A DNA stretch of 42,650 bases from Mycoplana azooxidifex. GTDB taxonomy: Bacteria; Pseudomonadota; Alphaproteobacteria; Rhizobiales; Rhizobiaceae. The notes under the pieces were generated by a model. The model worked only from the letters and a program-made list of their open reading frames with translations. It had not been told where the DNA came from and searched no databases. The translations under genes were made by a program, and so were the position numbers. The stretch is taken from the NCBI RefSeq assembly GCF_014196765.1, contig NZ_JACIEE010000017.1:1-42650 (forward strand). Reading direction: 5' to 3'. Every line of letters begins with the position of its first letter. Within the stretch, counting starts at the first letter, position 1. Shown here piece after piece: positions 12,854-42,650 of the stretch.

Positions 12854-13912
12854 ATGTTTTTCAAGAATTTCAGGCGCACCGCGCCTTTGACGGTGGCCGT
12901 GCTCATCTCGTTGGCATCAGCGTCTTCGGCCCTGGCGCAGGAGATGGCCAAGCCGACCGCCGAGATGCAGGCCGTTCTCGACAAGCTCGGCGCGCTGGAT
13001 GCAAAGCCATTTTCGACGCTGAGCGTGCCCGATGCCCGCACCCAGGCAAGCCCGGCGGATGCCGCCCACGCCGTCCAGTGGGAGAAGCGGATTTCGTCGA
13101 ACCCGGAAGCCCAGGTCACGACGAAGGACATCTCCATTCCAACCAAGGCCGGTACGCTAGCCGCCCGCGTCTATATTCCCGGCGGCACGGGACCTTTCCC
13201 GGTGGTCGTTTATTATCATGGTGGCGGCTGGGTTGTGGCCGACATCAATGTTTACGATGGCGCACCGCGCGCGTTGTCCCTCGGCGCCAATGCCATCGTC
13301 GTTTCGGTCGAATACCGGCACGCACCCGAGCACAAGTTTCCCGCAGCCCACGACGACGCCTGGGCGGCATACGAATGGGTGGTCGAGAACATCCACGAAC
13401 TGAACGGCAATTCCGACAAGATCGCGGTCGCCGGCGAAAGCGCCGGCGGCAATCTGGCCGCCAATGTCGCGCTGATGGCGAAAGAGATGAAGACCAAGCA
13501 GCCTGTCCACCAGCTTCTGGTCTATCCCGTTGCCGGCAATGACATGGACACGCCGTCCTACAAGGAAAACGCCAACGCCAAACCGCTCGGCAAGGCCGAT
13601 ATGGAATGGTTCGTGAAGAATTCGGTCTCGTCCATGGAAGAAACTAAGGACCCTCGGATCAACCTCAACGGTCGTTCCGATCTGGCCGGTGTCGCGCCTG
13701 CCACCGTCATCCTGGCGCAGATCGATCCGTTGCGCTCCGACGGCGAAATCTATGCCGGCAAGCTGAAGGATGCCGGTGTTGGGGTCGACCTGAAGAATTT
13801 CAACGGCGTCACCCACGAATTCTTCGGCATGGGCAAGGTCGTCCCAGAGGCCAAGCAGGCACTTGATCTCGCCGTCGCCGACCTCACCGCAGCCTTTGCC
13901 AAAGCCAAGTAA
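12854..13912 (+). CDS. Secreted alpha/beta hydrolase (HSL/acetyl-esterase type)
   Basis: A 352-residue protein with a Sec signal peptide (MFFKNFRRTAPLTVAVLISL...SSALA, cleavage likely after residue 28). Catalytic features: oxyanion motif HGGGW (122-126), nucleophile S196 in GESAGG, Asp291 in QIDPLRSDG and His321 in THEF. These define the hormone-sensitive-lipase/carboxylesterase group, hydrolysing short acyl esters or lactones in the periplasm. It is first in an operon, followed 11 bases later by the DUF4142 gene. A PQQ sugar dehydrogenase downstream would make aldonolactones, so a lactone-type substrate is possible; that is inference. Controlled by the EcfG promoter at 12799. Confidence 0.9.
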   Translation: MFFKNFRRTAPLTVAVLISLASASSALAQEMAKPTAEMQAVLDKLGALDAKPFSTLSVPDARTQASPADAAHAVQWEKRISSNPEAQVTTKDISIPTKAGTLAARVYIPGGTGPFPVVVYYHGGGWVVADINVYDGAPRALSLGANAIVVSVEYRHAPEHKFPAAHDDAWAAYEWVVENIHELNGNSDKIAVAGESAGGNLAANVALMAKEMKTKQPVHQLLVYPVAGNDMDTPSYKENANAKPLGKADMEWFVKNSVSSMEETKDPRINLNGRSDLAGVAPATVILAQIDPLRSDGEIYAGKLKDAGVGVDLKNFNGVTHEFFGMGKVVPEAKQALDLAVADLTAAFAKAK

Positions 13913-14447: not shown

Positions 14448-14464
14448 CCCGATGATCCGCGACG

Positions 14465-14500
14465 AAGCCCGGTGTCATCGACCGGGCTTTCCTTTTTATT
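14465..14500 (+). terminator. Intrinsic terminator inside the operon
   Basis: Stem AAGCCCGGT (14465-14473) pairs with ACCGGGCTT (14481-14489), followed by a T-rich tract (TTTCCTTTTTATT). It sits between the DUF4142 gene and the PQQ dehydrogenase and would reduce or stop read-through from the EcfG promoter. Confidence 0.75.
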
Positions 14501-14520
14501 CCAGTGGTCCGGGAGGTCCC

Positions 14521-16329
14521 ATGAACATCCGTCTGTCCGCGCTTTTATTATCCGCTTCCGCCTTGGCCTTGTCGCTGCCGTCGATATCGTTCGCACAGGT
14601 CAAGGGAGAGGTGGGCCGAGCCTCCGATGTCGTCATCCAGGGCTCGATCCTGGAGCCGGAAAAGCTTCAGGTGAAGGACGACGCCAAGCTCACGGCGCTG
14701 ATCAAGGCGCCCGAAGGCTTCAAGGTCGAGGTCTTCGCTCGCGACCTAATCAATCCGCGCATGCTAGCGGTCTCCGACAAGGGCATTGTCTACGCCACGC
14801 GCAGGTCTGTCGGTGATGTCATCATGCTCAAGGATGATGACGGCGACGGCAAGGCGGATGGCACCGTTACGGTTGCGAGCCGCCCCGGCATACATGGCAT
14901 TACCTTCGACGGGAATACTGTTTTCCTGGTGACGATCCATGATGTCTACACCGCCGACGTCAAGGAAGACGGAACGTTCGGCCCGCTGAAACGCATCATC
15001 AACGATCTGCCGGATGCGGGACAGCATGCCAACCGCACGCTCGGCATTGGCCCCGACGGCATGCTCTACATCGGCTCGGGTAGCACCTGCAACGAATGCC
15101 AGGACGACAATCCGGAAAACGCCACGGTCCTGCGGGCAAGCAAGGATGGAGCATCGCGGTCGATCTTCGCCAGCGGCCTGCGCAACACCATCGGTTTCGA
15201 CTGGGAACCGACCACCGGTGCGCTTTACGGTATGGATCACGGCATCGACTGGCTCGGCGACGAGGTCCAGGTCGAGGAACTGAACCGGATAGAGCAGGGC
15301 AGGAAATATGGCTGGCCCTATGTCTATGGCATGAGCGGGCTGAACCCCCGTATGGATCCGCCAGAAGGCGTCACGCTGGAGGATTGGGCCAGGCAATCGA
15401 CCGAGCCGGTCCTCGGCTACACCGCCCACAGCGCGCCGATGCAGATGGCATTCTACTATGGCGAGGCTTTCCCGGCGGACTATCATGGCGATGCCTTCAT
15501 CGCCATGCGCGGCTCGTGGAACCGCCGTCCGCCTAGCGGCTACGAGATCGTCCGCATCAATTTTGAAAATGGCAAACCCGTCGCGTTCGAGAAATTTCTC
15601 GAAGGCTTCCTGCTGCAGCAGGAAAACGGCAAGTACGGCTATCTAGGACGCCCGACGGGCGTGGCAGTCGGCAACGATGGGTCTCTGTTCTTCGCCGACG
15701 ACAGCAACGGAGTGGTCTACAAGGTCTCCTACAGCGCCGGCGCAACGACACAGGCCGCGGAGGCCGGCACCATTCCCAATGTCGTCACCGACTTGCCGGC
15801 ATCCAAGATCGCGATCGATCTGGTCGATGCCAAAGGTCGCGATGCAATCTCCGTGAAATCCGCTTTCGACAAGGACGGCCCGATCCCGCTGCAATACGTT
15901 GCTGATGGCGACAATGCATCGCCGGCGATCGAGTGGAGCGGCGCACCTGAGGGTACCAAGTCGTTTGTGATCATCTGCGACGATCCCGACGCCGCTAAGC
16001 CAAAGCCGTTCACGCACTGGGTCGCCTATGACGTCCCGGCGGGAACCACAAAGCTGCGTGAAGGAATTCCTGGCGCACCGGTCCTGCAGGAGCCGAAGGA
16101 CATGAAGCAGGGCGCCAACAGCATGGGTTCGCTTGGCTATACCGGTCCGAAGCCGCCGGTCGGCGATCCCGCTCATCATTATCATTTCCAGGTGTTCGCG
16201 CTGGACGCCGAAACGCTTGGCCTTGAGCCCGGCGCGAAACGTGATGCTGTGCTGAAGGCTATGGAAGGCCACGTGCTCGCCGAGGGCCAGATCGTTGGCA
16301 CGCTCGAGCGAAAGCTGGCATCGAAATAG
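14521..16329 (+). CDS. PQQ-dependent sugar dehydrogenase fused to a YbhB/PEBP domain
   Basis: A 602-residue exported protein. Start ATG 14521 is preceded by GGGAGG; the signal peptide ends near SISFA-Q. Residues about 55-415 form a sorbosone/soluble glucose dehydrogenase-like six-bladed propeller ([60 protein letters not shown]). Residues about 445-600 are a Raf-kinase-inhibitor-like PEBP domain ([49 protein letters not shown]). The propeller oxidises sugars with PQQ in the periplasm; PEBP domains bind anionic ligands. No cytochrome c motif (CxxCH) is present, so electrons leave by another carrier. The ADH follows 10 bases later. Confidence 0.9.
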
Positions 16330-22961: not shown

Positions 22962-25094
<2,133 letters not shown>

Positions 25095-26680: not shown

Positions 26681-29032
26681 GTGGCGAAATATGGCGCCGG
26701 CACTGTCATGCTGTGGGATCGCGGTTATTGGGAGCCTGAGGGCAACAAGTCCCCGGAAGAGGCTTTGAAGAAGGGTGACATCAAGTTCGTACTCCACGGC
26801 AAGCGCCTGCAGGGCGGCTTCGTGCTCGTCAGGATGCGCAACGATCGCGACGGCGGCAAGCGGACAAACTGGTTGCTAATCAAGCACCACGACGACCATT
26901 CCGTCGAGGAGAACGGCGCGGCCATTCTGGACGAGAACATGACGTCGGTCGCGTCCGGCCGGACGATGGAGCAGATAGCCGCCGGCAAGGGGCGGAAGCC
27001 GGTAGCGTTCATGACGGCAAGCGGCGACGTCGAGGTCGATGCTGTGTGGGACAGCAAGCACGGCCTTGCGGCTGACGAGCAAAAGAAGAAGGCCCGCAAG
27101 GATGTAGCGACATCGACGGCAGCCGATCTGCCCGACTTTATTCCCCCGCAGCTCTGCGAGACGGTTGAACGCCCACCAGCCGGCGACAAGTGGCTGCACG
27201 AGATCAAGTTCGACGGATATCGAATTCAGATGCGGGTCGCCGACGGCGGGGTGACGCTCAAAACCCGCAAGGGCCTGGACTGGACCGCCAAGTATCCGGA
27301 GATAGCCGAGGCCGCCGCATCACTTCCCGATTGCATCATCGACGGGGAGATTTGCGCCCTCGACGACAACGGCGCCCCGGACTTCGCCGCTTTGCAGGCA
27401 GCGCTATCGGAGCGCAACACCGGCAATCTGGTCTATTTCCCGTTCGACCTCCTGTTCTATGGCGGACAGGACTTGCGCGAAAAGCACCTGGTCGACCGAA
27501 AAGCTCGGTTGCAGGAGCTGCTTGCGACCAAGGATCCGCATCTGCGTTTCGTCGAGCATTTCGAGACGGGCGGCGATGCGGTTCTACGCTCCGCCTGCAA
27601 GCTCTCGCTCGAAGGCATCGTCTCGAAACAGGCGGATGCGCCCTATCGATCCGGGCGGACCGAAACCTGGGCGAAATCGAAATGCCGAGCGGGGCATGAG
27701 GTTGTCATCGGCGCCTATGCCAAGACGAACGGAAAGTTCCGCTCCCTCCTCGTCGGCGTCAATCGTGGCGACCACTTCGTCTATGTCGGCCGGGTCGGCA
27801 CGGGCTATGGCGCGAAGAAGGTCGAAACGCTTCTGCCCAAGCTGAAGGCGCTCGAAACCACAAAATCGCCCTTCACAGGGATCGGCGCACCGAAAAAAGA
27901 GAAGGAAGTCTTCTGGCTGAGGCCCGAGTTGGTCGCCGAGATCGAATTCGCCGGATGGACCGCTGATGGTCTCGTCCGCCAGGCCGCCTTCAAGGGACTT
28001 CGGGAAGACAAGCCGGCAGCAGAGGTCGAAGCCGAGAAGCCGGCCCCGCCAGCGAAGACGGAGACGCCCGAGCCCGCGCCGGAAACCAACAGAAAACCCG
28101 CGCGCCGCAAGGGAGCCAAAGCGGAGGTCATGGGCGTTTTCATCTCCAATCCGGACAAGCCGCTTTGGCCAGACGCGGGTGACAATAAGCCGGTTACCAA
28201 GGAGGATCTGGCCCGGTATCATGAGGCGGTTGGTTCCTGGCTCATCGAGCATGTGAAGGGCCGACCGTGCTCGATCATCCGCGCGCCGGATGGGATCGGC
28301 GGTGAACAATTCTTCCAGCGCCACGCCATGCCGGGTACCTCGAACCTTCTGGAACTGGTCAAGGTCTTCGGCGACAAGAAGCCATACCTGGAAGTTGAAC
28401 GGATCGAAGGCCTCATCGCCATCGCGCAGATCGGCGGCATCGAGCTGCATCCGTGGAACTGCGAACCGGGAAAACCCGAAGTGCCGGGCCGGCTGGTGTT
28501 CGACCTCGACCCCGGCCCGGACGTGCCGTTCGCGTCGGTGGTGGCGGCCGCGCGCGAGATGCGCGACCGACTGGACGACCTCGGCCTTATCAGTTTTTGT
28601 AAGACGACAGGCGGCAAGGGGCTGCATGTCGTGACGCCGCTTGCGGTCAATGCCCGCAAGCCGCTCTGCTGGTCCGAGGCCAAGGGCTTTGCCCATGACG
28701 TCTGCGCGGAGATGGCCCGGGACAATCCTGACGCCTACCTCATCAAGATGACCAAGAGCCTGCGGGGAGGGCGCATCTTCCTTGACTATCTGCGCAACGA
28801 CCGAATGGCGACTGCCGTCGCCCCCTTGTCACCGCGGGCGAGGCCCGGCGCCACCGTGTCGATGCCGCTCACTTGGACACAGGTCAAATCCGATCTCGAT
28901 CCGAAGCGGTTCACGATCCGCACCGTGCCGGCGCTTCTGGCGAAGACGAGCGCATGGGAGGACTACTGCGATGGCCAGCGCCCGCTGGAGCATGCGATCA
29001 AACGGCTCACCAAACACAGGGCTGCTGCATGA
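26681..29032 (+). CDS. ligD: LigD-type ATP-dependent DNA ligase/polymerase, 5'-truncated
   Basis: A 783-residue frame from GTG 26681. Order is phosphoesterase remnant, ligase, polymerase. Residues 1-70 begin in mid-domain ([35 protein letters not shown]), so about 110 residues of the 3'-phosphoesterase domain with its metal-binding His and Asp are missing. The ligase domain (about 150-460) has the AMP-accepting lysine K176 in HEIKFDGYR and SLEGIVSK. The polymerase domain (about 495-780) has the catalytic FDLDPGPD and TTGGKGLHV motifs. LigD works with Ku in nonhomologous end joining. No good ribosome site precedes the GTG, so expression is uncertain; ligase and polymerase modules look complete. 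Confidence 0.88.
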
Positions 29033-31380: not shown

Positions 31381-32286
31381 TCAACCGGCTTTGCGCTGTG
31401 CTGCCGTCGAGCCGCGCGCCTTCGATGCCGTTGCACGCGCCGCGGGCTTGCGCCCGGCGCCCTTGTTGGCGTTGACAGCGGCGCGCTTCGGCTTGTCTCC
31501 GCTGGCCTTCAGCATCTTGGCGCTTTCGCGCAGCGCGGCAAGCAGATCGTCGGGCTTGGAGACCTTGACCGCCTTGCGCTTCGGCAGGGCCTTGCCTTCG
31601 ATCTTCGCCTTCACCAGTTCAGCGACCGCCGTCTCGTAGCGATCGTCGAACGCGGCGGGATCGAAGGTTCCTTTCTTGGTGGCGATGATGTGCTTGGCGA
31701 GATCCAGCATCTCGCCCTTGATCCGCAGCTTCGGCACTTCCTCAAACGCCTTCTCCGAAGAGCGGACCTCGTAGTCGTACTGCATCGTGGTGGCGATCAG
31801 GCCCTTGCCATGGGTGCGGATCAACACGGTGCGCATGCGCCGGAACAGGACGGTGCGGGCGACTGCGGCGACCTTCGACTTCTCCATCGCATCACGCAGC
31901 GCGGTAAAGGCGTCCGAAGAAACCCGGTCGGTCGGCACGAGATAGTAGGGCTTGTCGAAATAGACGTCATCAACGTCGGAGCAGGAGATGAAGGCTTCGA
32001 TTTGCAGCGTCTTGTTGCTGTCAGGAATGGTCGCCGCCACCTCTTCCGGATCGATCATGATGTACTGGCCGTTCTCGATCTCGAAGCCCTTGGTCTGGTC
32101 CTCGCGCTCGACCTCCTTGCCGGTGTCGCTGTCGACGAACACGCGGTTGACGCGGTTGCCTGTCTTTTTATTGATCGTATGAAACGAAATGCGCTCAGAA
32201 GTGCTGGCGGCCGTATAGAGGCCGACGCCGCAGCTCACCTCGCCGAACTTGATGAAACCCTTCCACTGAGCACGATGACCGGCCAT
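31381..32286 (-). CDS. ku: Ku DNA end-binding protein, copy 2
   Basis: A 301-residue Ku. ATG 32286 (MAGHRAQWKGFIKFGEVSCG) matches the family start; the frame stays open upstream but that part is not Ku. Motifs: AQWKGFIKFG, ERISFHTINKKTGN, KPYYLVPTD and MRTVLIRTHGKG. The C-terminus is an extended Lys/Ala-rich tail (about 245-301) for non-specific DNA contact. Rhizobia often keep two or more ku genes, and divergent copies may form heteromers. It is divergent from the HARP-like gene across a 202-base shared promoter region. Confidence 0.93.
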   Translation of the reverse strand: MAGHRAQWKGFIKFGEVSCGVGLYTAASTSERISFHTINKKTGNRVNRVFVDSDTGKEVEREDQTKGFEIENGQYIMIDPEEVAATIPDSNKTLQIEAFISCSDVDDVYFDKPYYLVPTDRVSSDAFTALRDAMEKSKVAAVARTVLFRRMRTVLIRTHGKGLIATTMQYDYEVRSSEKAFEEVPKLRIKGEMLDLAKHIIATKKGTFDPAAFDDRYETAVAELVKAKIEGKALPKRKAVKVSKPDDLLAALRESAKMLKASGDKPKRAAVNANKGAGRKPAARATASKARGSTAAQRKAG

Positions 32287-32488
32287 CTTGAACACTCCCG
32301 ACTCGACGCAACCAAAACGAGTCAAGCGAATCAGAAAGGAATTTGTTTCGAGTCGAATAGAATCGGAAATCAATAACTTAGGTGCTTCTCGTCTCCCTTT
32401 TTGCGAGTCTCGAATATGCCCTTGATTCGCTGCATCTTTTATGCGGCCGGTGCGTTCTTCCGGGACCGCAACCGAGAGGGGCAATGTC

Positions 32489-33574
32489 ATGCCCGAACGT
32501 GAACTCGATACCGGAACCGCCAATGTTCGGCGCGACGAGAAAGGCCAGTTCAGGAAGAGCGTAGATGTCAGCCGGCTCTTGTCCGCCGACCAGCGCAAGA
32601 AGGCGGATAATGAGTCCGAGCCCAGCGAAGGCGACCGCGGTGATCGGCGCACGAAACACCGAGGAGCGGGTCGCCTCGCGAGTGGTGACGTTATGACGGA
32701 GGATGTCGAGAGTGCCGATGGGGCCGAGGATGGCGGCGAGCGTGCCTCTGTCTCGTTTCCATTTGACCGCATGACAGTGCAGCGGTTTCGCGAGACCTTT
32801 CCGCGCGCCCGCTGGAGCGACTGGCGAAAGGCCTGGGTCGTTCCCGGCAAGACGGCGCGCCGGCGTATTGATCGCTGGCTGGCCAAGGAAGAATCCCGTG
32901 CCGATCCCTACGCAGAGGCGAAGGGCAGGGATGCTTTTGCCTTCGAGCCGATCCTCAGCCCCTACCTCGGCGTCGATAAGGACGGGCTCCGCATCACGAC
33001 GCCCTATTCCCGCAAACTGGTCGAGGAAATCCGGCAGGTGCCCTTCGCCCGCTGGGACGGCCACCACAAGGCCTGGCGGGTGCCTTTCTCCTCCTATGAC
33101 GATCTTGTCGACCACTGGCAGGCCATCGAGATGGAAGCACAGCGGTGCGAACCCGAAGAAAGGCGCAAGCGCGCTGCGGCGCGCAAGGGGACCGAGGAGG
33201 AAAGGACGTCCCGCCGCCGGACGGCCGAGCGCAAGCGTCGTCGCATCCCACTTCCCGCCGATGATCTGCCCCCGTTGGACCGGCCGATCGCGACGACACC
33301 GCACGGGATTATCGTCGTAGCCGACATCACCGGCGAGCTGGTCGAGCACGAAGAGATTGCCGACCTCTATCCCGGCATCGCCGACGATCATGTCTGGGGA
33401 TCATGGCGAATGCCGTCGCTGGATGAATTGGTGCAGACCTGGCCCTCGCGAACTGAACCCGGCGACGACGAGCGCCAGCGCGGCTGGTGGCTGCCGACCC
33501 TCGAAGAATTACGCGCCGCGCGGCGAACTGCGAGGGCGCGCGAGCGTCGGGCGATGCAGCAGGCGCCGGTCTGA
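32489..33574 (+). CDS. HARP-like repeat protein linked to Ku (unknown function)
   Basis: A 361-residue protein from ATG 32489 with a GAGAGGGG ribosome site. Two related modules resemble the HARP domain of SMARCAL1-type annealing helicases: residues 95-133 (FRETFPRARWSDWRKAWVVP, then basic RRRIDRW) and 172-213 (VPFARWDGHHKAWRVP, YDDLVDHW). The shared core is P-x-A-R-W-(x)4-KAW-x-VP. A third weak echo lies near 300-345 (VWGSWRMPSLDELV; RGWWLPTLEELR). The start (1-90) and middle (215-255) are very basic and probably disordered. No helicase motifs. Divergent from ku2 and convergent with exonuclease III; a DNA-annealing or end-bridging role is inference. Confidence 0.6.
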   Translation: MPERELDTGTANVRRDEKGQFRKSVDVSRLLSADQRKKADNESEPSEGDRGDRRTKHRGAGRLASGDVMTEDVESADGAEDGGERASVSFPFDRMTVQRFRETFPRARWSDWRKAWVVPGKTARRRIDRWLAKEESRADPYAEAKGRDAFAFEPILSPYLGVDKDGLRITTPYSRKLVEEIRQVPFARWDGHHKAWRVPFSSYDDLVDHWQAIEMEAQRCEPEERRKRAAARKGTEEERTSRRRTAERKRRRIPLPADDLPPLDRPIATTPHGIIVVADITGELVEHEEIADLYPGIADDHVWGSWRMPSLDELVQTWPSRTEPGDDERQRGWWLPTLEELRAARRTARARERRAMQQAPV

Positions 33575-33576
33575 CC

Positions 33577-34359
33577 TCAATCCGCGGGCGGCTCGATCTC
33601 GATCATCACAGGCGCGTGGTCGCTGGTGTGGTCCCAGCTTCGCGGCCCGCGGCGAACGCTGGCGGACCTCAGCCAAGGGGCCACGGTGGGGCTGAGCAGA
33701 AGATGGTCGATGCGCAGGCCCGCATCGCGCTCGAAGGAATTGCGCCAATATTTCCAGAAGGTGTAGATGCGTTCCTTCGGATGGAGGTGGCGGACGGCAT
33801 CGGTCCAGCCTTGGGCGAGGAGATCGGCGTAGGCTTTCCTGACTTCCGGGCGAAACAGCGCATCGTCACGCCAACGTTCTGGTGCATAGACATCGAGGTC
33901 CGTGGGCATAACGTTGTAGTCGCCGACCAGCAGGGCGGGTATGCCGAGTTCGATCAGCTCGGCGGCGTAGGCCTGGAGGCGCTGGAACCAGCGCAGCTTA
34001 TAGTCGAACTTCGCGCCGGGGGCCGGGTTGCCGTTGGGAAGATAGAGGCAGCCGACCAGCATGCCGTCGATGGCGGCCTCGATATAGCGGCTATGCGCGT
34101 CGTCTGGATCGCCCGGCAGGCCGCGTCGCGTAAGGACAGGCATCCTGTCCCTGGCGAGGATCGCGACGCCATTCCAGCTCTTCTGTCCGTGCCAGACCGC
34201 CTCGTATCCGACCCGCTGAAGTTCGCGCCGCGGGAAGCGCTCGTCGGGCGATTTTAGTTCCTGCAGGCAAACGACATCGGGGGCATCGTCTTCCAGCCAC
34301 CGCAGGAGGTTGGGAAGGCGACCATTGATGCCATTGACGTTGTAGGTGGCGATCTTCAC
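33577..34359 (-). CDS. xth: Exodeoxyribonuclease III (AP endonuclease family)
   Basis: A 260-residue EEP-fold nuclease: MKIATYNVNGINGRL, LQELKSPDERFP, the WNGVAIL strand, GDYNVMPTDLDVY, RIDHLLLSP and SDHAPVMIEIE. Metal-binding Glu (QELK), Asp/Asn (GDYN) and the terminal Asp-His (SDH) are all present. It cuts abasic sites and trims 3' blocking groups, useful with a LigD that has lost phosphoesterase. Ends two bases from the convergent HARP-like gene. Probably a second xth beside a chromosomal copy. Confidence 0.92.
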   Translation of the reverse strand: MKIATYNVNGINGRLPNLLRWLEDDAPDVVCLQELKSPDERFPRRELQRVGYEAVWHGQKSWNGVAILARDRMPVLTRRGLPGDPDDAHSRYIEAAIDGMLVGCLYLPNGNPAPGAKFDYKLRWFQRLQAYAAELIELGIPALLVGDYNVMPTDLDVYAPERWRDDALFRPEVRKAYADLLAQGWTDAVRHLHPKERIYTFWKYWRNSFERDAGLRIDHLLLSPTVAPWLRSASVRRGPRSWDHTSDHAPVMIEIEPPAD

Positions 34360-34634: not shown

Positions 34635-36896
34635 CTATTTCGAGTACGTAAGCCCACCTTGCGAGATCTCGCCTAGCACCCGCGCCAGGGGCTCGTACAC
34701 GCTGCGTCCTTCCTCTGATGGAACCGCTGATAGCAGACCGTTTTCACAGGGTCGATCATCGTCCCATCCCGGATGGTTTACGATCGGATACAGGCAGATC
34801 GCCTCGATGGGCACTCCAGCGTCCGCCGCTGCATTTACTTCATCGTAGATATACCTCATCCACGGCCCACGTTTTTCCGCCTCAATTCCCGTTTCGGCAA
34901 TAAGCATGGGCCTGCCATAACGAGCATAGGTCTCGTACAGGATTGTTCGGAGTGGTTTATGGAGTGGGTGATCTACATCGATCGCAGTGGCGCCATGAAC
35001 CCACTGGTTGTTGTGATAGTAGTTGACGCCGACAATATCGAGATATCGTTTAGAACCACCGATCTGCGGCCACATGCGCCCTGCAAGCAGGTCCCAGCCT
35101 TGATATTGTGAGTGACAATGACCTTGCGAGACCTGTCGGTCCCATGGACGGGATGGGTCAGCCACAACGTTTATCACGGGATCGCAATGAACAAATCGCG
35201 CTCGGGAATCGACGGCAAGAACAGCTTTCATTGCTGCGATCGAGGCCCGCGCCAGTTGAACTTTCAACTCAAAGCCACGTCCGCGAGTGAAGGGATTGAG
35301 ATAGCCCACGTCGCCTCCGGCCCATGCGAAGAACGAAATTTCGTTGACCGGCACATAGAACGGTACCACATCGCTAGCTTGGCGCACGACGGATGCCGTC
35401 GCTCCTGCAAACGCGGCGAAACGGGTCACGAATTCTGGCGACCAGATATCAATGTCGTCGGGCCAGCCGTAATGGAGCAGATCCCAGATCACTTGCGTTC
35501 CAGTCTCCCGTGCGGCCGTGAGCATCGGCAGGAAGCTTGCCCAATCATATTTTTCGGGAACCGCCTCGATCAAATGCCACCGCACACCGTCGCGAACGGT
35601 GCGGATGGCATGGCTGGCAAGCTGGGCATAGTCGGCCGCGGCATTGATGTCGTGTCGAGTCGCGGCGATCATGTCAAGACGTTTGCCCGAGACCTCGCCC
35701 TCGCGCGGTTGTAGACGGTGGGTCGAACATTCGAAACCGCCCTGAAAGAAGGACTTGAATATTCCCGTGGGCTCCGCCTTCCTTCTCTCGGCGATGACCT
35801 CCCGAATGACCCGTTCCCATTGAGGCAACACCGCTGCCACGCTGAAGCTTCTCTCGACTTGCGACCGGAGGGTCTGACCAAGTCTCTTGCGCAAATCTGG
35901 CGACGAAGTCAGCCTGTTCATCGCGCGAGCAACAGAAACTGGATCGCTATAGGGCACGAATAGGCCCGAAACCTCGTCCTCGATCTGTTGCCTAGCACCG
36001 TTGTCGGGTGTCGCAATCACAGGCAAGGCGGCTGCTCCTGCCTCTGCGATCACATGCGGCATGCCTTCGCCCTTCGACAACCACGCGAAGATATCGAACG
36101 CAGACAAAAGCGCCGGTACGTCCTTTCGGTCGCCCAGGAAGATCAGGGCGCCGCCCAGTCCGAACTTCTTGGCAAGCGCGTGCAATCGCAAAGCGTAATC
36201 AGGCATAAACGCGTCCGGTCCCCCGGCAATCACAAAACGCGTGCTCTTTTCGTGTGCATGCACGAGCGCAGCCGCTTCGATGAAATCTTCAACATTTTTC
36301 TTGGGATCAAGGCGCCCCGCCCAACCAATGAGAACGCTGTCTTCCGCCACACCAAGCGACGCGCGCATCGCGAGACGCTGACTAGCGTCGAACTCCGACA
36401 GATCGACCATTGACGGAATTTCAAGCGCGTCTTGCTCTCGTCCCAACATTATCGATGCGGCAGCATCTCGGATGGAGCGGCAGACGCCAATATAGCGACT
36501 GGTAAAATGCTTAGGTCCGGCCAGCGCCTCACAGACAAGTCCGCCATGCTCGATCAGAGGCGGACGCAGGTGAATGCGGTCCAGTGCCGGATAGATGTCG
36601 GCAACATTCTGGCATGAGATCACGACGTCGTAGCCTGGTATCTTGCATGCCAGGTAATCAATGGTGTCTTCCAATGACAGCTCGTACGGCGTCGTATCCA
36701 CATCGACGCCGAGTGCGGTCAACTGATCATGCGTCAGAAGCGGCATGTTGGGACTACGGAAGCATGCGACAACATCGATGCGATAACGCGCGCGATCGAG
36801 ATTGCCTGCCAGGAGACGGACCTCCGTCTCCTCGCCGCCGACAACCAGCCAGGCGAATACGAACAGAATACGCACGGGCGGTCCGCGAGAGCTCAT
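34635..36896 (-). CDS. Fused GT4 glycosyltransferase and glycoside hydrolase (GH-A clan)
   Basis: A 753-residue fusion. Residues 1-370 are a GT-B transferase of family GT4 (GWAGRLDPKKNVEDFIEA; EX7E motif E277/E285 in KGEGMPHVIAEA). Residues 377-753 are a (beta/alpha)8 hydrolase opening GIFKSFFQGGFECSTHR, with acid/base in VPVNEISFF (E519) and nucleophile E668 in MLIAETGIE, as in beta-glucosidase-like GH-A enzymes. No signal peptide or membrane helix, so it should act in the cytoplasm on a nucleotide- or lipid-linked product, or as a transglycosidase. The hydrolase begins at an ATA where homologues are expected to have ATG (inference), hinting at a lost start. Last in the operon; its ATG overlaps the previous stop (ATGA). 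Confidence 0.85.
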   Translation of the reverse strand: MSSRGPPVRILFVFAWLVVGGEETEVRLLAGNLDRARYRIDVVACFRSPNMPLLTHDQLTALGVDVDTTPYELSLEDTIDYLACKIPGYDVVISCQNVADIYPALDRIHLRPPLIEHGGLVCEALAGPKHFTSRYIGVCRSIRDAAASIMLGREQDALEIPSMVDLSEFDASQRLAMRASLGVAEDSVLIGWAGRLDPKKNVEDFIEAAALVHAHEKSTRFVIAGGPDAFMPDYALRLHALAKKFGLGGALIFLGDRKDVPALLSAFDIFAWLSKGEGMPHVIAEAGAAALPVIATPDNGARQQIEDEVSGLFVPYSDPVSVARAMNRLTSSPDLRKRLGQTLRSQVERSFSVAAVLPQWERVIREVIAERRKAEPTGIFKSFFQGGFECSTHRLQPREGEVSGKRLDMIAATRHDINAAADYAQLASHAIRTVRDGVRWHLIEAVPEKYDWASFLPMLTAARETGTQVIWDLLHYGWPDDIDIWSPEFVTRFAAFAGATASVVRQASDVVPFYVPVNEISFFAWAGGDVGYLNPFTRGRGFELKVQLARASIAAMKAVLAVDSRARFVHCDPVINVVADPSRPWDRQVSQGHCHSQYQGWDLLAGRMWPQIGGSKRYLDIVGVNYYHNNQWVHGATAIDVDHPLHKPLRTILYETYARYGRPMLIAETGIEAEKRGPWMRYIYDEVNAAADAGVPIEAICLYPIVNHPGWDDDRPCENGLLSAVPSEEGRSVYEPLARVLGEISQGGLTYSK

Positions 36897-39800
36897 TGCT
36901 GAACCTGAAAGACGATCTGGAGGAACTCCGGCCGGTTCTGCAAAAGATCAGCGAGGAAGGCTGGCCCGTCGTTGAAGGGAACAACATGGGTGATCATGTG
37001 CTCGCGAATGACCTCACCGTGGCTCTTTAAGAGAAGGACCGTCTCGTCGGCAAGCCGGCGCCTGTTCCAAAGGGGTGTCAATCCGCGTGGCACGCGGTCG
37101 ATCTGCGCGCACCGTACGGTGAGGCCGTTATGGTGGAATTCCTCCCCGAGCCTTAGTGCCTCAGCGCCGCCTTGGTAAAAGGCGAGATCGATGACAGTGC
37201 CCTGCGGTCGCAGTGCCTTGAGCGCCATTTGCAGGCTGTGTGCATGTGCCCGCGTCTGAAAGACGATATCGGCTCCGCGGTCTCTGCCGCCATTGTGCCA
37301 CCGCGCTTTCGCATGCTGCCATACTTCGTCCTCGCTCATTGCCGTCAGGCCCATAGCCTGCACTTTCTTGCGCCGGTACGCGGAGGGATCGGAGACAACG
37401 ACGCTCGCGGCACCGAGCTTCTGCGCAAAAAGGGCCGTGATCAGTCCGACTGTACCGGCACCAAGGACAACCACGTGGCACCCTGCGACACCAGCACCGA
37501 GATAGGGCACAGAGCTGCCGAGAGCATCCGCATCGGCATGCAGAATTCCATTGGCGGCGATTGGACCCATCTGTGCCACGAAGACGCCGAGAATGGGATC
37601 GATCCCGGCGGGCAGCGGTACAAGCATGTCGTGGAACGGGTCGGCTGTATGGCCGCTTTTGTGCGCATAGGTGGTCGCGACGACATCGCCGACTGCAATG
37701 TCGGGGGCCCGCGATTCCGAGACCTGCGCCACCTCCATGTAGCCAAGAAACGGCACGGGATACTGCAGCTGCGGTTCGTTTTCGAGAAAGACGCCACGGC
37801 CATCATCAAAGCGGGAATGGAAAAAGGGGTTAGTGTGTTTCAGGAAGGTGAGTTCCGTGCCTGCCGAAAAGCCGGTATAGAGGGTTTCGAGTCTGACATG
37901 CCCGTCGGGTGGCGGCCCCTCTTCATACTCATAGAGGAGGGCCTTTCCGGGACCTTCGACGCCGAGCGAGCGGATTGTGCGATGGTTCAGTGGCGGGCCG
38001 AAAGGGCCCTCTGAATTTTCTTCATGCCGCAATGGCGCGATCGCATTCTGGACGATCACAGGCGGATCCAGCTTTACCGGCACGCCGCTTTCCGCCGAAG
38101 ACACGACGGCGAGCGCGAGCCGGTGCGTCGCCAGTGCGTCTGAATAAGTGCAGCGAATATGGTTGTCGTCGCCGCGAACGGCGTCAACGAAATCACGGTC
38201 TTCCCGCCAAACAGGATCTCCCTTGGCCTGCCGTACCGGCCGCCCTGAGCCCACATCGACCATAATGTCATGATCCGTGACTTCGATCGCCAGACGATCG
38301 GCGAAAATGTTCAGTCCAACCTTGTGGCTCCAGCCGAGGAGACATGTTGATGATATGCTTGCAATGACACCGGACTGGAATGTGAGGTTCGCGGTCGTCA
38401 CAGCCGGTACATCGAAACCCGGAAACTCGGGGCGTTCCCTAAAGCTGGTGCGGCCATATACGTCTGTGACCTCGCCTACGAGGTATCGCGCCAGATCAAT
38501 GATGTGCGTCGTTTGCTCAACAACCTGCCCGCCTGAGTTTTCGGTTTTCCACCACCACGTCGGCGGCGGCGTCTGATCGAGCCAGTAGCCCGAGAGCAGC
38601 TGGGCTGGGTTATCGGCGAGGAGCGAGCGCGCCTCCTCCACCGTGTCCAGATAGCGCCAATGATATCCGACGGCAGTGATCAAATTTGCGGCCCCAACGG
38701 CAGCATTTATTTGCTCGGCAAGAGACAGCTCGAGCGTGATGGGCTTCTCGATGAAGAAGGGAATGTTGCGGGATATGAGATCCCGTTCGGCATCGCCATG
38801 GGCGAACGGCGGTATGCAAATATAGACCGCATCCAACGCCACGTTCTCCAGCATCTCGCGGTGGCTGTCGAAAGCCTTTCCGCCGAACTGCGAAACGGCA
38901 AGTTCGGCCTGACCAATGTCTGGGTCCGCGAATCCGACGAGTGCCACGTCGTGGAAGCCCCCCAAGATATCAAGATGACGGCCAGCAATGCCACCAACTC
39001 CGATGAATCCCATCCGTGTCTTGCCCATCAATCGGTCCCCTTTGTTAGTTCCCGAATGGTGGCGAAGAACGCGTCGGTACACCGAAGCCGTCTCCTGAGC
39101 CATTCGTTCAGCCGTAAACTCGGTTTGGAATCGTCTGCGGCCCGCCTCGCCAACCTCTCTTGCTCGTTTCGGATCGTCGAGTGCGGCAATCATCATCCGT
39201 GCCAAGGAGGTGGGATCTCCGCATTCGGCCAGAAACGGGTGGTCAAATCCTAGCGCTTCGATGGTGCCGCCGATCCGGGTCGCAACTATCGGGAGTCCTA
39301 GAGACATGGCCTCGAGTAGGGCCAGGGGAAGCCCTTCAAACCGCGACGGTAGGACAAACAAATCGGCACACGCGATCAATTCGCAGATTTCGATGCACTG
39401 TCCCAAAAACTGAACATGCGAACCCAGCGACAGTGTTTTAACGAGGCGCTGGATTGCCTCCATTTCCTCACCCTGGCCGACAAGCAGCAAAATAACCGAA
39501 GGGTGCTCGGCGACGACCTCCGGCATCGCCAAGATGAGAGAGGCATGGTCCTTCTGCTTGGTAAAACGGGCCACCGTCACCAGTGTGCGCCGCCCGTCGA
39601 GCCCGAGCATTTTTTTGAAGTTGCAGGGCCGTATACCTCCCTCGAGACCGAAGATCCCATTGCGAACAACCGAAATGCGGTCGGCCGCGACACCATTGAG
39701 TTCGAAACTGCGCCGCGAGGATTCCGATACGACGATATGATGAGCGAGTGCCGCGCATTCCATCGCGTAGGTTTCCCTCTGCTTCCTCTCAGTAAGAAGA

Positions 39801-40135
39801 TAGGGCAGATGATCCGTGCGAACCACCGGTATGCCGGACGCTACGCCGGCACGGGCTATCCCATGTCCCTCCCAGCCGATGCCAGCATGAATGTGGAGAA
39901 GGGAGCAGGCGCTGGCACGCAACCAAGCCTCGAACGAGACGTCGTCGTCGATCCGTTTTACCTCTAACCCCCGGCGTGTGGCGCGATCGAGGAGGTCATA
40001 TGTGCCCCTCACCGCTGCTAACGTAACTTCAAATTCCGACGAGAGCGCCTGTCCGAGGATGAGCATATGCTCTCCCATCCCTGAAGGATCCAGGCTGTCT
40101 GTGGCAAGCACTATCCGGACATGTGGTTTGATCAT
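36893..40135 (-). CDS. Fused GT4 transferase, Gfo/Idh/MocA oxidoreductase and MDR dehydrogenase
   Basis: A 1080-residue triple fusion. ATG 40135 (MIKPHVRIVLATDSLDPSG) overlaps the previous stop as ATGA; the longer frame upstream is inside the mutase gene. Residues 1-368: GT4 (EX7E E267/E275 in RFEGLPLALLE). Residues 370-705: Gfo/Idh/MocA oxidoreductase (GFIGVGGIAG, FIEKPITL, GYHWRYL). Residues 715-1080: zinc-type MDR dehydrogenase (YTGFSAGTELTF, VVVLGAGTVGLITA) lacking obvious structural zinc cysteines. Gfo plus MDR pairs modify nucleotide sugars or glycan keto groups. M370 (39028) has AAAGGGG and a TGATG just before it, so the oxidoreductase part was probably a separate gene. Confidence 0.85.
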   Translation of the reverse strand: MIKPHVRIVLATDSLDPSGMGEHMLILGQALSSEFEVTLAAVRGTYDLLDRATRRGLEVKRIDDDVSFEAWLRASACSLLHIHAGIGWEGHGIARAGVASGIPVVRTDHLPYLLTERKQRETYAMECAALAHHIVVSESSRRSFELNGVAADRISVVRNGIFGLEGGIRPCNFKKMLGLDGRRTLVTVARFTKQKDHASLILAMPEVVAEHPSVILLLVGQGEEMEAIQRLVKTLSLGSHVQFLGQCIEICELIACADLFVLPSRFEGLPLALLEAMSLGLPIVATRIGGTIEALGFDHPFLAECGDPTSLARMMIAALDDPKRAREVGEAGRRRFQTEFTAERMAQETASVYRRVLRHHSGTNKGDRLMGKTRMGFIGVGGIAGRHLDILGGFHDVALVGFADPDIGQAELAVSQFGGKAFDSHREMLENVALDAVYICIPPFAHGDAERDLISRNIPFFIEKPITLELSLAEQINAAVGAANLITAVGYHWRYLDTVEEARSLLADNPAQLLSGYWLDQTPPPTWWWKTENSGGQVVEQTTHIIDLARYLVGEVTDVYGRTSFRERPEFPGFDVPAVTTANLTFQSGVIASISSTCLLGWSHKVGLNIFADRLAIEVTDHDIMVDVGSGRPVRQAKGDPVWREDRDFVDAVRGDDNHIRCTYSDALATHRLALAVVSSAESGVPVKLDPPVIVQNAIAPLRHEENSEGPFGPPLNHRTIRSLGVEGPGKALLYEYEEGPPPDGHVRLETLYTGFSAGTELTFLKHTNPFFHSRFDDGRGVFLENEPQLQYPVPFLGYMEVAQVSESRAPDIAVGDVVATTYAHKSGHTADPFHDMLVPLPAGIDPILGVFVAQMGPIAANGILHADADALGSSVPYLGAGVAGCHVVVLGAGTVGLITALFAQKLGAASVVVSDPSAYRRKKVQAMGLTAMSEDEVWQHAKARWHNGGRDRGADIVFQTRAHAHSLQMALKALRPQGTVIDLAFYQGGAEALRLGEEFHHNGLTVRCAQIDRVPRGLTPLWNRRRLADETVLLLKSHGEVIREHMITHVVPFNDGPAFLADLLQNRPEFLQIVFQVQQ

Positions 40136-42471
40136 CGCGTGCTGGCTGAGATGGCATCTCTCAAACCAGTCCTTGTCAGTTGCCGGTAGGTCGCCAATGC
40201 CTGGCCTACAACCTGATCCATGTTGTAATATTTGTAGGTTCCCAGCCGTCCAACAAACGTGACATCGGTGAGATCGCGAGCGAGCGACTCGTATTGTTTG
40301 TAAAGCGCTTGGTTTTCGGGGCGCGGGATCGGATAGTAGGGATCGCCGTCGGCGCAAGCAAATTCAAAGGATATGCTCGTTTTCGGATGGATTTGGCCGG
40401 TCAGGTGCTTGTACTCTGTTATCCGAGTATATGGCACGGCCTCCGAGGGATAGTTGACAACCCCGACCGGGAGCATGCGCTCCATATCATGCGTCTCATG
40501 CTGAAAATTGAGGCTACGGTAGGGCAAGCGACCGAAGCAATACTCGAAGTATTCATCTATCGGGCCGCTGAAAATTGTGTGCGCCGCAACGTTTTCGCTG
40601 CGAATATCCGCATACTCGGTGCCGGTCATAACGGTGATGTTGTCGTGATCCAGCATTTTCTCGAACATTGCGGTATATCCGTCGCGCGGCATCGCCTGAT
40701 AGGTATCGAGAAAATACCTGTCGTCGACGCTGGTGCGGGTCGGAACTCGCGCCGTTACGGATCTGTCCAGCTCAGAGGGGTCGAGACCCCATTGCTTGCG
40801 CGTATAACCCTCGAAAAAAGTACGATAAAGATCACTGCCGACCTGGGCCAACACCACATCCTTCGACGTCACGATCGTTCTGCAGGGTTCGGCGCGGCTG
40901 GCGAGAAAGATTGCGGCTTCCGCTTCGTCGCTCAGATTGAGCCCGTAGAGGTTATTGATCGTCGTTCTGTTAATGGGAATGGGTAGGAGTCGTGCGTTTA
41001 CATCCGCCAGGACACGGTGTTCGTAGGGACGCCAGACAGTAAACCGCGACAAGTATTCGAAGACGCGCTGGCTGTTGGTATGGAAGATATGCGGCCCGTA
41101 TTGGTGTACGAGAATGCCGGCTTTATTGTAGAAATCATAGGTGTTACCTGCGATATGCGGTCGCCGGTCGCAAAGAAGCACGCGTTTGTTGCGGCCGGAA
41201 GCAAGCCGTTCCGCGAGCACCGACCCAGCGAATCCGGCCCCGACGATCAGGTAATCATATGCCGCAGAAGTCCCCTTGCCTTTGCTGGGACAATGGCACT
41301 GCTTCGGCGATCGCTCGGAAGCGAACCGCCGGGTGACGACCTCATCCAAGAGCGTGTTCATGCCTTGGAATGTCTTGTCCCATGAGGATTTCGCTAGAGC
41401 CAAATCGGCCAACGCAAGCCAGTCGCTTCCAGAGTTCTTGAGGGCCAGCGCTCGATCGCATGCAGGGGCGAAGTCACAGGCATCTGCCAGAAACACACCG
41501 TCCACATCGCCATATTGACGCACCACATCCCTAATCGCCGTGCTGACGACGGGGCGTCCGGCTGCGAGGTATTCCGGCGTCTTGGTCGGGCTGATAAACT
41601 TCGTTGCCTCATTGAGCGCAAACGGCATAAGGGCGACGTTCCACCCTGAAACGTAGGCGGGCAGTTCGTCATAGTGTTTCTGCCCAAGGTAATAAATATT
41701 GGGTGCTTTAGGCAGGATTTCAGGATTGATCTTTGCTACCGGCCCGATGAAAACGAATGACATGTTGGGCCGGGCCCGGGCTACAGCGTCTATTAAATCC
41801 AGATCAATACGCTCGTCGATGACGCCATAGTACCCCAACTTGGGGCCTGGAATCGACCTTTGATCAGGCGGCTCCGTGCAACAATACCTTGCAGTCTTGA
41901 AATGTGCCGCGTCTACGCTAGATGGAAATGAATGAATGTTCTGGTGCAAATGGCGCTTGGCCTCATAGAGGCTGTGCCCACCTGTGAACACGGCATCGGC
42001 CCGGGCGATGAGGCGCGCCTCGTTTTCCTTTAATCTAGGCATTGCGAACTTGAAGTTCGCCAGTTCGTCCATGCAGTCATATATGATGGCAGATGCCTCC
42101 ACATGACCTGTAAATTCGTACATCATCGGCGTGTAAAACCACAGCACGGGGCTTGCGGCGTGGCTCAACTTCAGCAGCTCGTCAAGAAGCGATCGAAGCG
42201 CTTTAACTCGCTGGTTTGTCTCCCACCCTCTTGGAATTCGCGGCCGTACGGCCTTGACCGTCGTTCCCTCGAAAACGTGAATCTCGAGATAGGGGAGATG
42301 ATGTTCAGTCGGAATGAATTCTTCAAAAAAGAACACCTCGCGATCTCTGGAGAACCGCTTCATAAGATGTTGGGGGCGCTGCAGAACAAAATCCCAGCGT
42401 AAGTGGGAAAAGCAAATCAGCGGCGCATTTCGCGCAGGAACTGATGGGGAAAAGGAACTGGAGAGATACAT
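40132..42471 (-). CDS. glf: Fused glycosyltransferase and UDP-galactopyranose mutase
   Basis: A 779-residue fusion. Residues 1-385: GT-B-like transferase (CFSHLRWDFVLQRPQHL, YDCMDELANF, KLGYYGVIDERIDLDLI, SPTKTPEYLAAGRPVV). Residues 405-779: UDP-galactopyranose mutase with FAD motif YDYLIVGAGFAGS (405-417), QYGPHIFHT, FEGYTRKQWG, the arginine loop before DDRYFLDTYQAMP, and RLGTYKYYNMDQV at the end. The mutase makes UDP-galactofuranose; the fused transferase may use it directly. Linker 386-404 (SERSPKQCHCPSKGKG) is low-complexity. First in a three-gene operon with an EcfG promoter about 30 bases upstream. Galactofuranose is typical of cell-surface polysaccharide. Confidence 0.9.
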   Translation of the reverse strand: MYLSSSFSPSVPARNAPLICFSHLRWDFVLQRPQHLMKRFSRDREVFFFEEFIPTEHHLPYLEIHVFEGTTVKAVRPRIPRGWETNQRVKALRSLLDELLKLSHAASPVLWFYTPMMYEFTGHVEASAIIYDCMDELANFKFAMPRLKENEARLIARADAVFTGGHSLYEAKRHLHQNIHSFPSSVDAAHFKTARYCCTEPPDQRSIPGPKLGYYGVIDERIDLDLIDAVARARPNMSFVFIGPVAKINPEILPKAPNIYYLGQKHYDELPAYVSGWNVALMPFALNEATKFISPTKTPEYLAAGRPVVSTAIRDVVRQYGDVDGVFLADACDFAPACDRALALKNSGSDWLALADLALAKSSWDKTFQGMNTLLDEVVTRRFASERSPKQCHCPSKGKGTSAAYDYLIVGAGFAGSVLAERLASGRNKRVLLCDRRPHIAGNTYDFYNKAGILVHQYGPHIFHTNSQRVFEYLSRFTVWRPYEHRVLADVNARLLPIPINRTTINNLYGLNLSDEAEAAIFLASRAEPCRTIVTSKDVVLAQVGSDLYRTFFEGYTRKQWGLDPSELDRSVTARVPTRTSVDDRYFLDTYQAMPRDGYTAMFEKMLDHDNITVMTGTEYADIRSENVAAHTIFSGPIDEYFEYCFGRLPYRSLNFQHETHDMERMLPVGVVNYPSEAVPYTRITEYKHLTGQIHPKTSISFEFACADGDPYYPIPRPENQALYKQYESLARDLTDVTFVGRLGTYKYYNMDQVVGQALATYRQLTRTGLRDAISASTR

Positions 42472-42500
42472 CGCACACCCGCGTTTGAGACACGGACAGT

Positions 42501-42525
42501 AACCGGGAGCCGAGTGGATGGTTCC
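42501..42525 (-). promoter_or_regulatory. EcfG promoter of the fused-glycan-enzyme operon
   Basis: On the minus strand GGAAC (42525-42521), 17 bases, GTT (42503-42501) then AC. It is 30 bases upstream of ATG 42471. Consensus match at the same spacing as the other sites. Confidence 0.7.
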
Positions 42526-42650
42526 GCGTGTTGCTAATTATTTCCTAATATGGTCAGTGACCTGCCACTGAACTTTCATCCAAAGGCGATTAGAGTTTCG
42601 GCGTTTTTTGATACGCCAGTTGGCGCGGTGTGAGCAACCGGTGGCAACGC

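Follow-up and report, generated by a model that had tools for sequence, protein, structure and literature searches.

A putative general-stress operon for a galactofuranose glycoconjugate, with a GH1-like domain, in Mycoplana azooxidifex and related bacteria

Introduction

UDP-galactopyranose mutase (UGM, or Glf) and the β-glucosidases of glycoside hydrolase family 1 (GH1; clan GH-A) are the described enzymes closest to two of the modules encoded by the locus considered here. The structure that best matches the first of these modules (PDB 3hdq) aligns with it over its full length and is presumably that of the Deinococcus radiodurans enzyme. The D. radiodurans glf gene also follows a glycosyltransferase (GT) gene of the type found here, but in our locus the mutase is fused to the GT and is part of a seven-module operon with a predicted stress promoter. 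The GH1 β-glucosidases have their fold and catalytic glutamate pair in common with the second module, which differs from them in that it is about 15% identical, is about 60 residues shorter, matches no Pfam family, carries 'GW' for 'EW', and is linked, in the observed clusters, to a UGM and a GT.

With respect to regulation, the nearest described system is the EcfG/PhyR/NepR general stress response of Sphingomonas melonis Fr1, for which the accessible text gives the motif GGAAC-N17-20-GTT, as here, and in which Ku was examined as a possible direct target of EcfG (PMC6599016). With respect to the product, a precedent for a four-sugar glycolipid tipped with galactofuranose (Galf) is described, in the accessible part of the source, for Thermus thermophilus NGL-C, Galf-Gal-GlcNacyl-Glc-diacylglycerol (PMC3398001); the likeness is by analogy only. 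The plant galactolipid galactosyltransferase SFR2, a GH1-family protein according to a title in the reference list of the source, is a precedent for such a protein working as a transferase in stress lipid remodelling (PMC11525325). SFR2 is a plant chloroplast envelope protein, however, and here too the comparison is one of analogy.

The closest likeness in gene layout is found in Sinorhizobium meliloti RCAM1115 (CP050559), where three ORFs occur in the identical order with 4-bp overlaps, as in the DNA analyzed here, and are annotated only generically as 'glf', 'glycosyltransferase' and 'glycosyltransferase'. Among the titles and abstract openings covered by a literature search, no description of the operon was found. 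The whole stretch of DNA analyzed, termed the window, is one complete contig of 42,650 bp from Mycoplana azooxidifex (NZ_JACIEE010000017.1).

Results

Seven modules in three overlapping ORFs

Three ORFs on the minus strand (779, 1080, and 753 aa), joined by two ATGA overlaps and preceded by a GGAAC-N17-GTT sequence, were found to carry seven modules, exactly where an earlier note made from the sequence alone had placed them. The modules are lettered here in order of transcription. ORF1 (40132..42471, minus strand, 779 aa) fuses module A, a TuaH-like GT (41287..42471, minus), to module B, a UGM (40174..41265, minus). An ATGA stop/start overlap (40132..40135, minus) leads into ORF2 (36893..40135, minus, 1080 aa), which encodes modules C (a GT of family GT4), D (Gfo/Idh/MocA), and E (MDR); a length of 1154 aa is obtained from an upstream TTG, but this start was rejected for the ATGA-coupled ATG. 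A second ATGA overlap (36893..36896, minus) precedes ORF3 (34635..36896, minus, 753 aa), in which module F, another GT4, is fused to the GH1-like module G (34638..35774, minus).

Module A matched PF13692 and scored 84 bits against the TuaH model NF047676, below its cut-off of 550, and the GT domains in general matched polysaccharide-type GT families, all under cut-off. Module B scored 368.6 bits against TIGR00031 (cut-off 303.75), matched PF03275 with an E value of 6.2e-79 and gave PDB 3hdq as its best structural match (E 1.8e-161); the curated score and the full-length alignment place it, by prediction, in the UGM family. When the sequence of module E was read by eye, GHE and the catalytic Cys, which we take to be the motif of zinc MDRs, were absent. 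The earlier expectation of a UDP-Galf enzyme accompanied by several transferases is supported by these profile matches. As judged by such matches, the set combines one enzyme for UDP-Galf with three or four GTs, a pair of oxidoreductases, and a GH1-like domain that is cytoplasmic. Comparison with PHROGs yielded nothing useful.

A scan of 19-residue Kyte-Doolittle means, used in place of a dedicated predictor, revealed no signal- or anchor-like stretch in the operon proteins. The highest mean, 1.98, was located in the Rossmann motif of the MDR, in agreement with the earlier claim that signal peptides and membrane anchors are missing.

A GH1-like domain at the end of the operon

Module G matched no Pfam family even at E ≤ 10, and in NCBIfam there was a weak match to a GH35 family (E 3.3e-4), far under cut-off. 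The best PDB matches to its profile were a reconstructed ancestral glycosidase (E 7.8e-18) and a β-glucosidase (E 1.6e-13). An AlphaFold model prepared from a 30-sequence alignment (pLDDT 93.5) had β-glucosidases as its top structural matches, with a TM score of 0.76 by query length. Residues N144, E145, and E294 were invariant across the 30 sequences, and the NE and ETG motifs, with their conserved glutamates, align with what we take to be the GH1 acid/base (NE) and nucleophile (the E of ETG). The GH1 'EW' motif, presumably a sugar-binding motif, is replaced by 'GW'. The model and the profile alignments predict a TIM barrel with the catalytic Glu pair, and no curated GH1 family model recognized the domain; module G is described here as a GH1-like relative and is not filed as GH1.

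Distribution and architecture in relatives

Related loci were gathered by comparing the module G alignment with named genomes. At least 560 stretches matched, of which the best 80 were kept, and the sample therefore leans to close relatives. Within these 80 loci, the order A-(B)-C-D-E-F-G was constant in all 59 that hold C and D; in one core locus (L142) module G comes first. If '=' denotes modules in the same open frame, 22 of the best 80 loci are arranged as A=B, C=D, E, F=G; 16 as A=B, C=D=E, F=G, identical to the window; 12 as A, C=D=E, F=G, without module B; and six as A=B, C, D, E, F=G. Core clusters take the form A, B, G (eight loci) or A=B, G (five), and the remaining 11 are cut, odd, or incomplete. 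One module was divided between frames in L110, L112, and L116, and the F=G fusion was present in all 61 named loci holding both modules.

The idea that the fused set is peculiar to the source genome was ruled out by the 16 loci with the same three fused ORFs. Homologous operons always made of separate genes and with a known product would have counted against the earlier reading; instead, these 16 loci have the fused form, and no described product was found among the titles and abstract openings covered. The fusion claim itself needs amendment, as modules C, D, and E are separate genes in some relatives.

Homologues of ORF2 were present 57 times in plasmid records, 55 of them at 60-80% identity, mostly in Sinorhizobium (27) and Rhizobium (19). 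The operon is carried on plasmids of S. meliloti, Sinorhizobium medicae WSM419, and Rhizobium leguminosarum WSM1325, and it also occurs in Agrobacterium and Sphingomonas genomes. Module G was detected in 42 of 394 genomes of the family of the window (Rhizobiaceae) and in none of six genomes of the same genus that were searched, and the trait therefore appears patchy and not a core function.

The simpler core, consisting of A, UGM, and the GH1-like domain, spans several phyla. In Azospirillum, it comprises A=B, G, and a half-exporter; in Chryseobacterium, it reads GT-glf-G; and in Mesorhizobium, G, glf, and a GT lie near a Mn catalase gene. In D. radiodurans, there is an A-glf pair, and G is encoded at another position of the replicon, in a fusion with an acyl-CoA-dehydrogenase-like domain; this fusion gene (L152, 8932-11271) adjoins a PIG-L deacetylase gene. 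One Pantoea record has G fused to A, together with a PRK07208-like flavoprotein. In Microcoleus (L128, L132), the mutase gene and the GH1-like gene are separated by a short ORF that reads as STAS-like and by a gene for a GH2 enzyme, and GalT is encoded downstream.

The link between module G and UDP-galactopyranose mutase

Among 397 genomes of the order, UGM was present in 25 of 27 with a strong G homologue vs 29 of 370 without one (Fisher 1.8e-22). For this count, two weak G homologues (E about 1e-12) were dropped, and shared handles indicate that both searches drew the same genomes. UGM lay within about 6 kb of G in 24 of the 25 genomes, as read by eye from the coordinates. The notion that operons without module B belong to genomes without UGM was also ruled out: exactly one UGM was found in each of 13 such genomes, namely those of 12 operons without B and that of L126, whose sole UGM is encoded close by on the opposite strand. 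In that UGM search, each of the 19 genomes covered held exactly one. GalE-like matches occurred in seven loci, six of them from Pseudomonas/Stutzerimonas with GalE beside A, and GalT was found near G in four cyanobacterial loci.

A probable conserved internal start in ORF2

A Shine-Dalgarno-like sequence, AAAGGGGA (39036..39043, minus), lies inside ORF2 ahead of an in-frame ATG (39026..39028, minus) at residue 370, where module D begins, and this ATG is likely to be a second translation start. In all 52 loci with C and D fused, a start codon (ATG, GTG, or TTG) was present no more than five codons from where D is expected to begin, and in 45 of them, as in the window, a Shine-Dalgarno-like sequence stood 4-11 bases before the D start. 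As a control, such a sequence preceded 186 of 2224 in-frame start codons (8.4%) elsewhere in these ORFs. The signal occurred in all three codon phases (22, 13, and 10). When the 16-mers were shuffled, a mean of 10.7 loci retained a signal, with a maximum of 20 in 500; when synonymous codons were redrawn, the mean was 27 of 52 and the maximum 35 in 500, so that the encoded amino acids alone would account for roughly half of the signal. Note that many of the loci are related, there being 47 distinct 16-mers, with the signal in 41.

Internal-start signals were not seen at the A=B and F=G junctions, where an ATG or GTG was nearby in 8 of 50 and 11 of 61 cases, respectively. At the D=E junction, the signal was present in two of 30 loci, and where C and D are separate genes in two of seven. 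A ribosome-binding site and an in-frame start codon before the oxidoreductase half are thus conserved at the C-D junction, and on this basis ORF2 probably makes two proteins, the C-D fusion coexisting with a free D(-E) product. The description of three giant fused enzymes in the earlier note is therefore overstated for ORF2, in which an internal start ahead of the Gfo/Idh domain is conserved. Genes nested within genes have precedents in Cas11b (PMC11899642) and RpnS (PMC10327210), as far as the accessible text of those reports goes. That the internal start of ORF2 is conserved suggests that a fused gene and separate production of its parts can coexist over long periods.

C and D are fused in Rhizobium mongolense (L066), and in Rhizobium tibeticum (L067) they are not in one open frame; by reading, the latter has an in-frame TGA five codons before the D start.

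Gene X and the end of the contig

An extra GT gene, X, was found directly upstream of A, in the same direction and 23-168 bp away, in 53 of the 80 loci, with two further ORFs of the X cluster (L092, L126) set aside. The assumption that A is in general the first gene of the locus was therefore ruled out, and the gene set of the earlier note was incomplete, X having been missed. Some full-type relatives have no recognized X.

In the source genome, X is located at the very end of another contig, C13 (L148). There, the gene has a frameshift near codon 337, and an IS-like end comes after it. This copy of X has its own upstream GGAAC-N17-GTT. The last ~ 93 bp of the window (42558..42650) are an IS-like repeat end that recurs at the ends of contigs C6 and C8, which explains the contig break. 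With its TGACCTGCCACT end and its MKKSRFSDEQ start, the element looks like a member of the IS3 family; it does not reach into the promoter-like site of A. A 4-bp repeat (42554..42557; CTGA on the minus strand), read by eye as a putative target-site duplication, adjoins both the IS-like end of the window and that of C13, as a 4-bp target duplication would. The IS-like ends and the CTGA suggest that C13 and the window contig are neighbors.

A candidate general-stress promoter

An EcfG-type promoter-like site, GGAAC-N17-GTT (42501..42525, minus), is located 30-54 bp upstream of the first ATG. A scan for GGAAC-N15..18-GTT within 350 bp upstream of A gave matches in 34 of 73 loci (30 of 58 full-type and four of 15 core), the remaining 28 full-type loci having none, against a background of 3.1% in 14,600 stretches drawn at random from these loci, coding regions included. 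Besides the window, 32 loci had the N17 form no more than 100 bp from A, but these rows were chosen for the motif and the 34 of 73 is therefore the fair measure. In the rhizobial set (L063-L072, L074-L089, and L101, six of which are labelled just 'Rhizobiales bacterium'), 25 of 27 loci carried the motif, 50-64 bp before A and always as N17, and the spacer was little conserved. At spacers of 15-18, the motif was missing upstream of A in sphingomonads and in most Devosia and Aureimonas loci. The Sphingomonas loci fetched also had no such motif upstream of X (spacers 15-20), unlike the S. melonis EcfG system. Upstream of X, the motif was found in 16 of 53 loci. A conserved upstream GGAAC-N16/17-GTT, such as would mark membership of an EcfG regulon, is thus seen in the rhizobial loci and is missing in most other full-type loci.

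The window contains six GGAAC-N17-GTT sites, compared with a mean of 1.04 in shuffled sequences, none of 100 shuffles reaching six. Five of the six end 24-40 bp before a listed ORF start, as found by reading a mechanical ORF list. A sigma-70 scan gave one match (shuffle mean 3.3) and a terminator scan 15 sites (7.9), neither of which was used as evidence. Two matches to NepR in the source genome were over cut-off. The proposal of general stress control made in the earlier note is supported by these two matches and by the promoter-like sites of the 25 rhizobial loci.

The same contig carries catalase (22965-25094, minus), LigD (26681-29029, plus), Ku (31384-32886, minus), and ExoIII-like (33580-34359, minus) genes. 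By its predicted genes it is an island for stress and DNA repair, and six GGAAC-N17-GTT sites lie on it. ExoIII-like, Abhydrolase_3, and GSDH+PBP fusion genes lie near the operon both in the window (12854-13909, 14452-16326, and 33580-34359) and in Devosia sp. Leaf420 (L091, 11402-16606), so that part of the island seems to travel with the operon.

Genes for DUF892 proteins were present within 19 of the 80 loci, several of which are close relatives and not independent. The background was 88 matches in about 133 Mb from 24 genomes, 15 of them chosen for having such a gene nearby, which predicts one in about 1% of such flanks. In Tianweitania populi (L095, 13118-15879), DUF892 and catalase genes lie directly downstream of the operon.

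Flanking genes and a half-exporter

Pfam searches of 32 flanking ORFs at four full-type loci (L063, L091, L095, and L109; X left out) detected no flippase, polymerase, initiating transferase, or half-exporter type. Homologues of one half-exporter, in which membrane and ATPase domains are fused, were present in 24 of 115 loci searched, corresponding to 23 distinct places as L023 and L044 are one place. Among the named loci, seven of the 19 that lack F had one and none of the 61 with F did; the other matches were in L023, L155, and 15 of 26 short loci, for which the flank covered was about 1.5 kb. Every place where the half-exporter adjoins G thus has either the simpler cluster or a short flank. 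A close exporter was sought in the source genome and not found, the best match being at 38%. The earlier statement that no flippase or export gene is in view agrees with what was seen in the full-type loci searched, but not with some core-type relatives, in which this half-exporter, of MsbA/ABC-exporter type, lies beside the GH1-like gene. Its best models were those of MsbA, at 381.5 of 780.4 and 370.4 of 602 bits, and a glucan exporter model scored 340.2, nearly as high; a 'lipid exporter' label is weak because the MsbA scores are under cut-off and the glucan exporter is nearly equal.

Discussion

One interpretation of these data, which we consider plausible though just short of probable, is that the operon is regulated by the general stress response and directs synthesis of a galactofuranose glycoconjugate that is edited by a GH1-like domain and is perhaps lipid-linked. 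Module B would supply UDP-Galf locally and module A would transfer Galf from it, while X, C, and F could build a short chain. Modules D and E may oxidize or epimerize one sugar, and ORF2 would yield both the full-length C-D-E protein and, via the internal start, D-E alone. Module G might then trim or transglycosylate the chain. The least certain step is the acceptor: the chain may stand on a lipid, as a glycolipid or a lipid-linked oligosaccharide, and the half-exporter in some core clusters allows for such a product.

It could instead be that the product is soluble and protective, a small oligosaccharide or glycoside with Galf that stays in the cytoplasm, much as trehalose does in general stress. 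This explanation is possible but doubtful. The stress-type promoter, the lack of recognizable membrane anchors in the operon proteins, the cytoplasmic GH1-like and oxidoreductase domains, and the 61 named loci with F and no exporter homologue are all consistent with it; the half-exporter beside G at 23 distinct places, each with either the simpler cluster or just a short flank, speaks against it. Rather unlikely, in our view, is that the operon adds Galf to a surface polysaccharide (LPS, EPS, or capsule) while polymerase and export genes lie elsewhere. Galf does occur in bacterial surface polymers, for example in the Kingella galactan according to the accessible text of PMC12269835, and the GT domains resemble polysaccharide-type families at scores under cut-off, but the 32 flanking ORFs of the four full-type loci scanned with Pfam included no flippase, polymerase, or initiating transferase family. 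That the operon is decaying in the source strain, a conserved but non-functional remnant with X frameshifted near codon 337 on C13 and split off by the IS-like insertion, is improbable, since none of the three ORFs is interrupted, ORF2 shares about 74% identity with Sinorhizobium homologues, the promoter-like site of A is complete and separates that gene from the IS-like end, and some full-type relatives likewise have no recognized X.

Returning to the stress-regulated, possibly lipid-linked Galf glycoconjugate, a more specific version can be drawn by analogy with SFR2. The locus might encode an undescribed stress glycolipid system, in which an EcfG-controlled Galf oligoglycosyl lipid has its sugars rearranged inside the cell by a GH1-fold transglycosidase that is fused to a GT, following an SFR2-like logic, with the oxidoreductase pair present both tethered to a GT and, through internal translation of the one ORF, free. 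In this detailed form, the proposal is speculative and its chances of being correct are low.

The operon sits in well-studied symbionts, yet the one annotated record opened says only 'glf' or 'glycosyltransferase' for its genes. If the product is indeed a stress glycan, the alphaproteobacterial general stress response would gain a testable output in cell chemistry.
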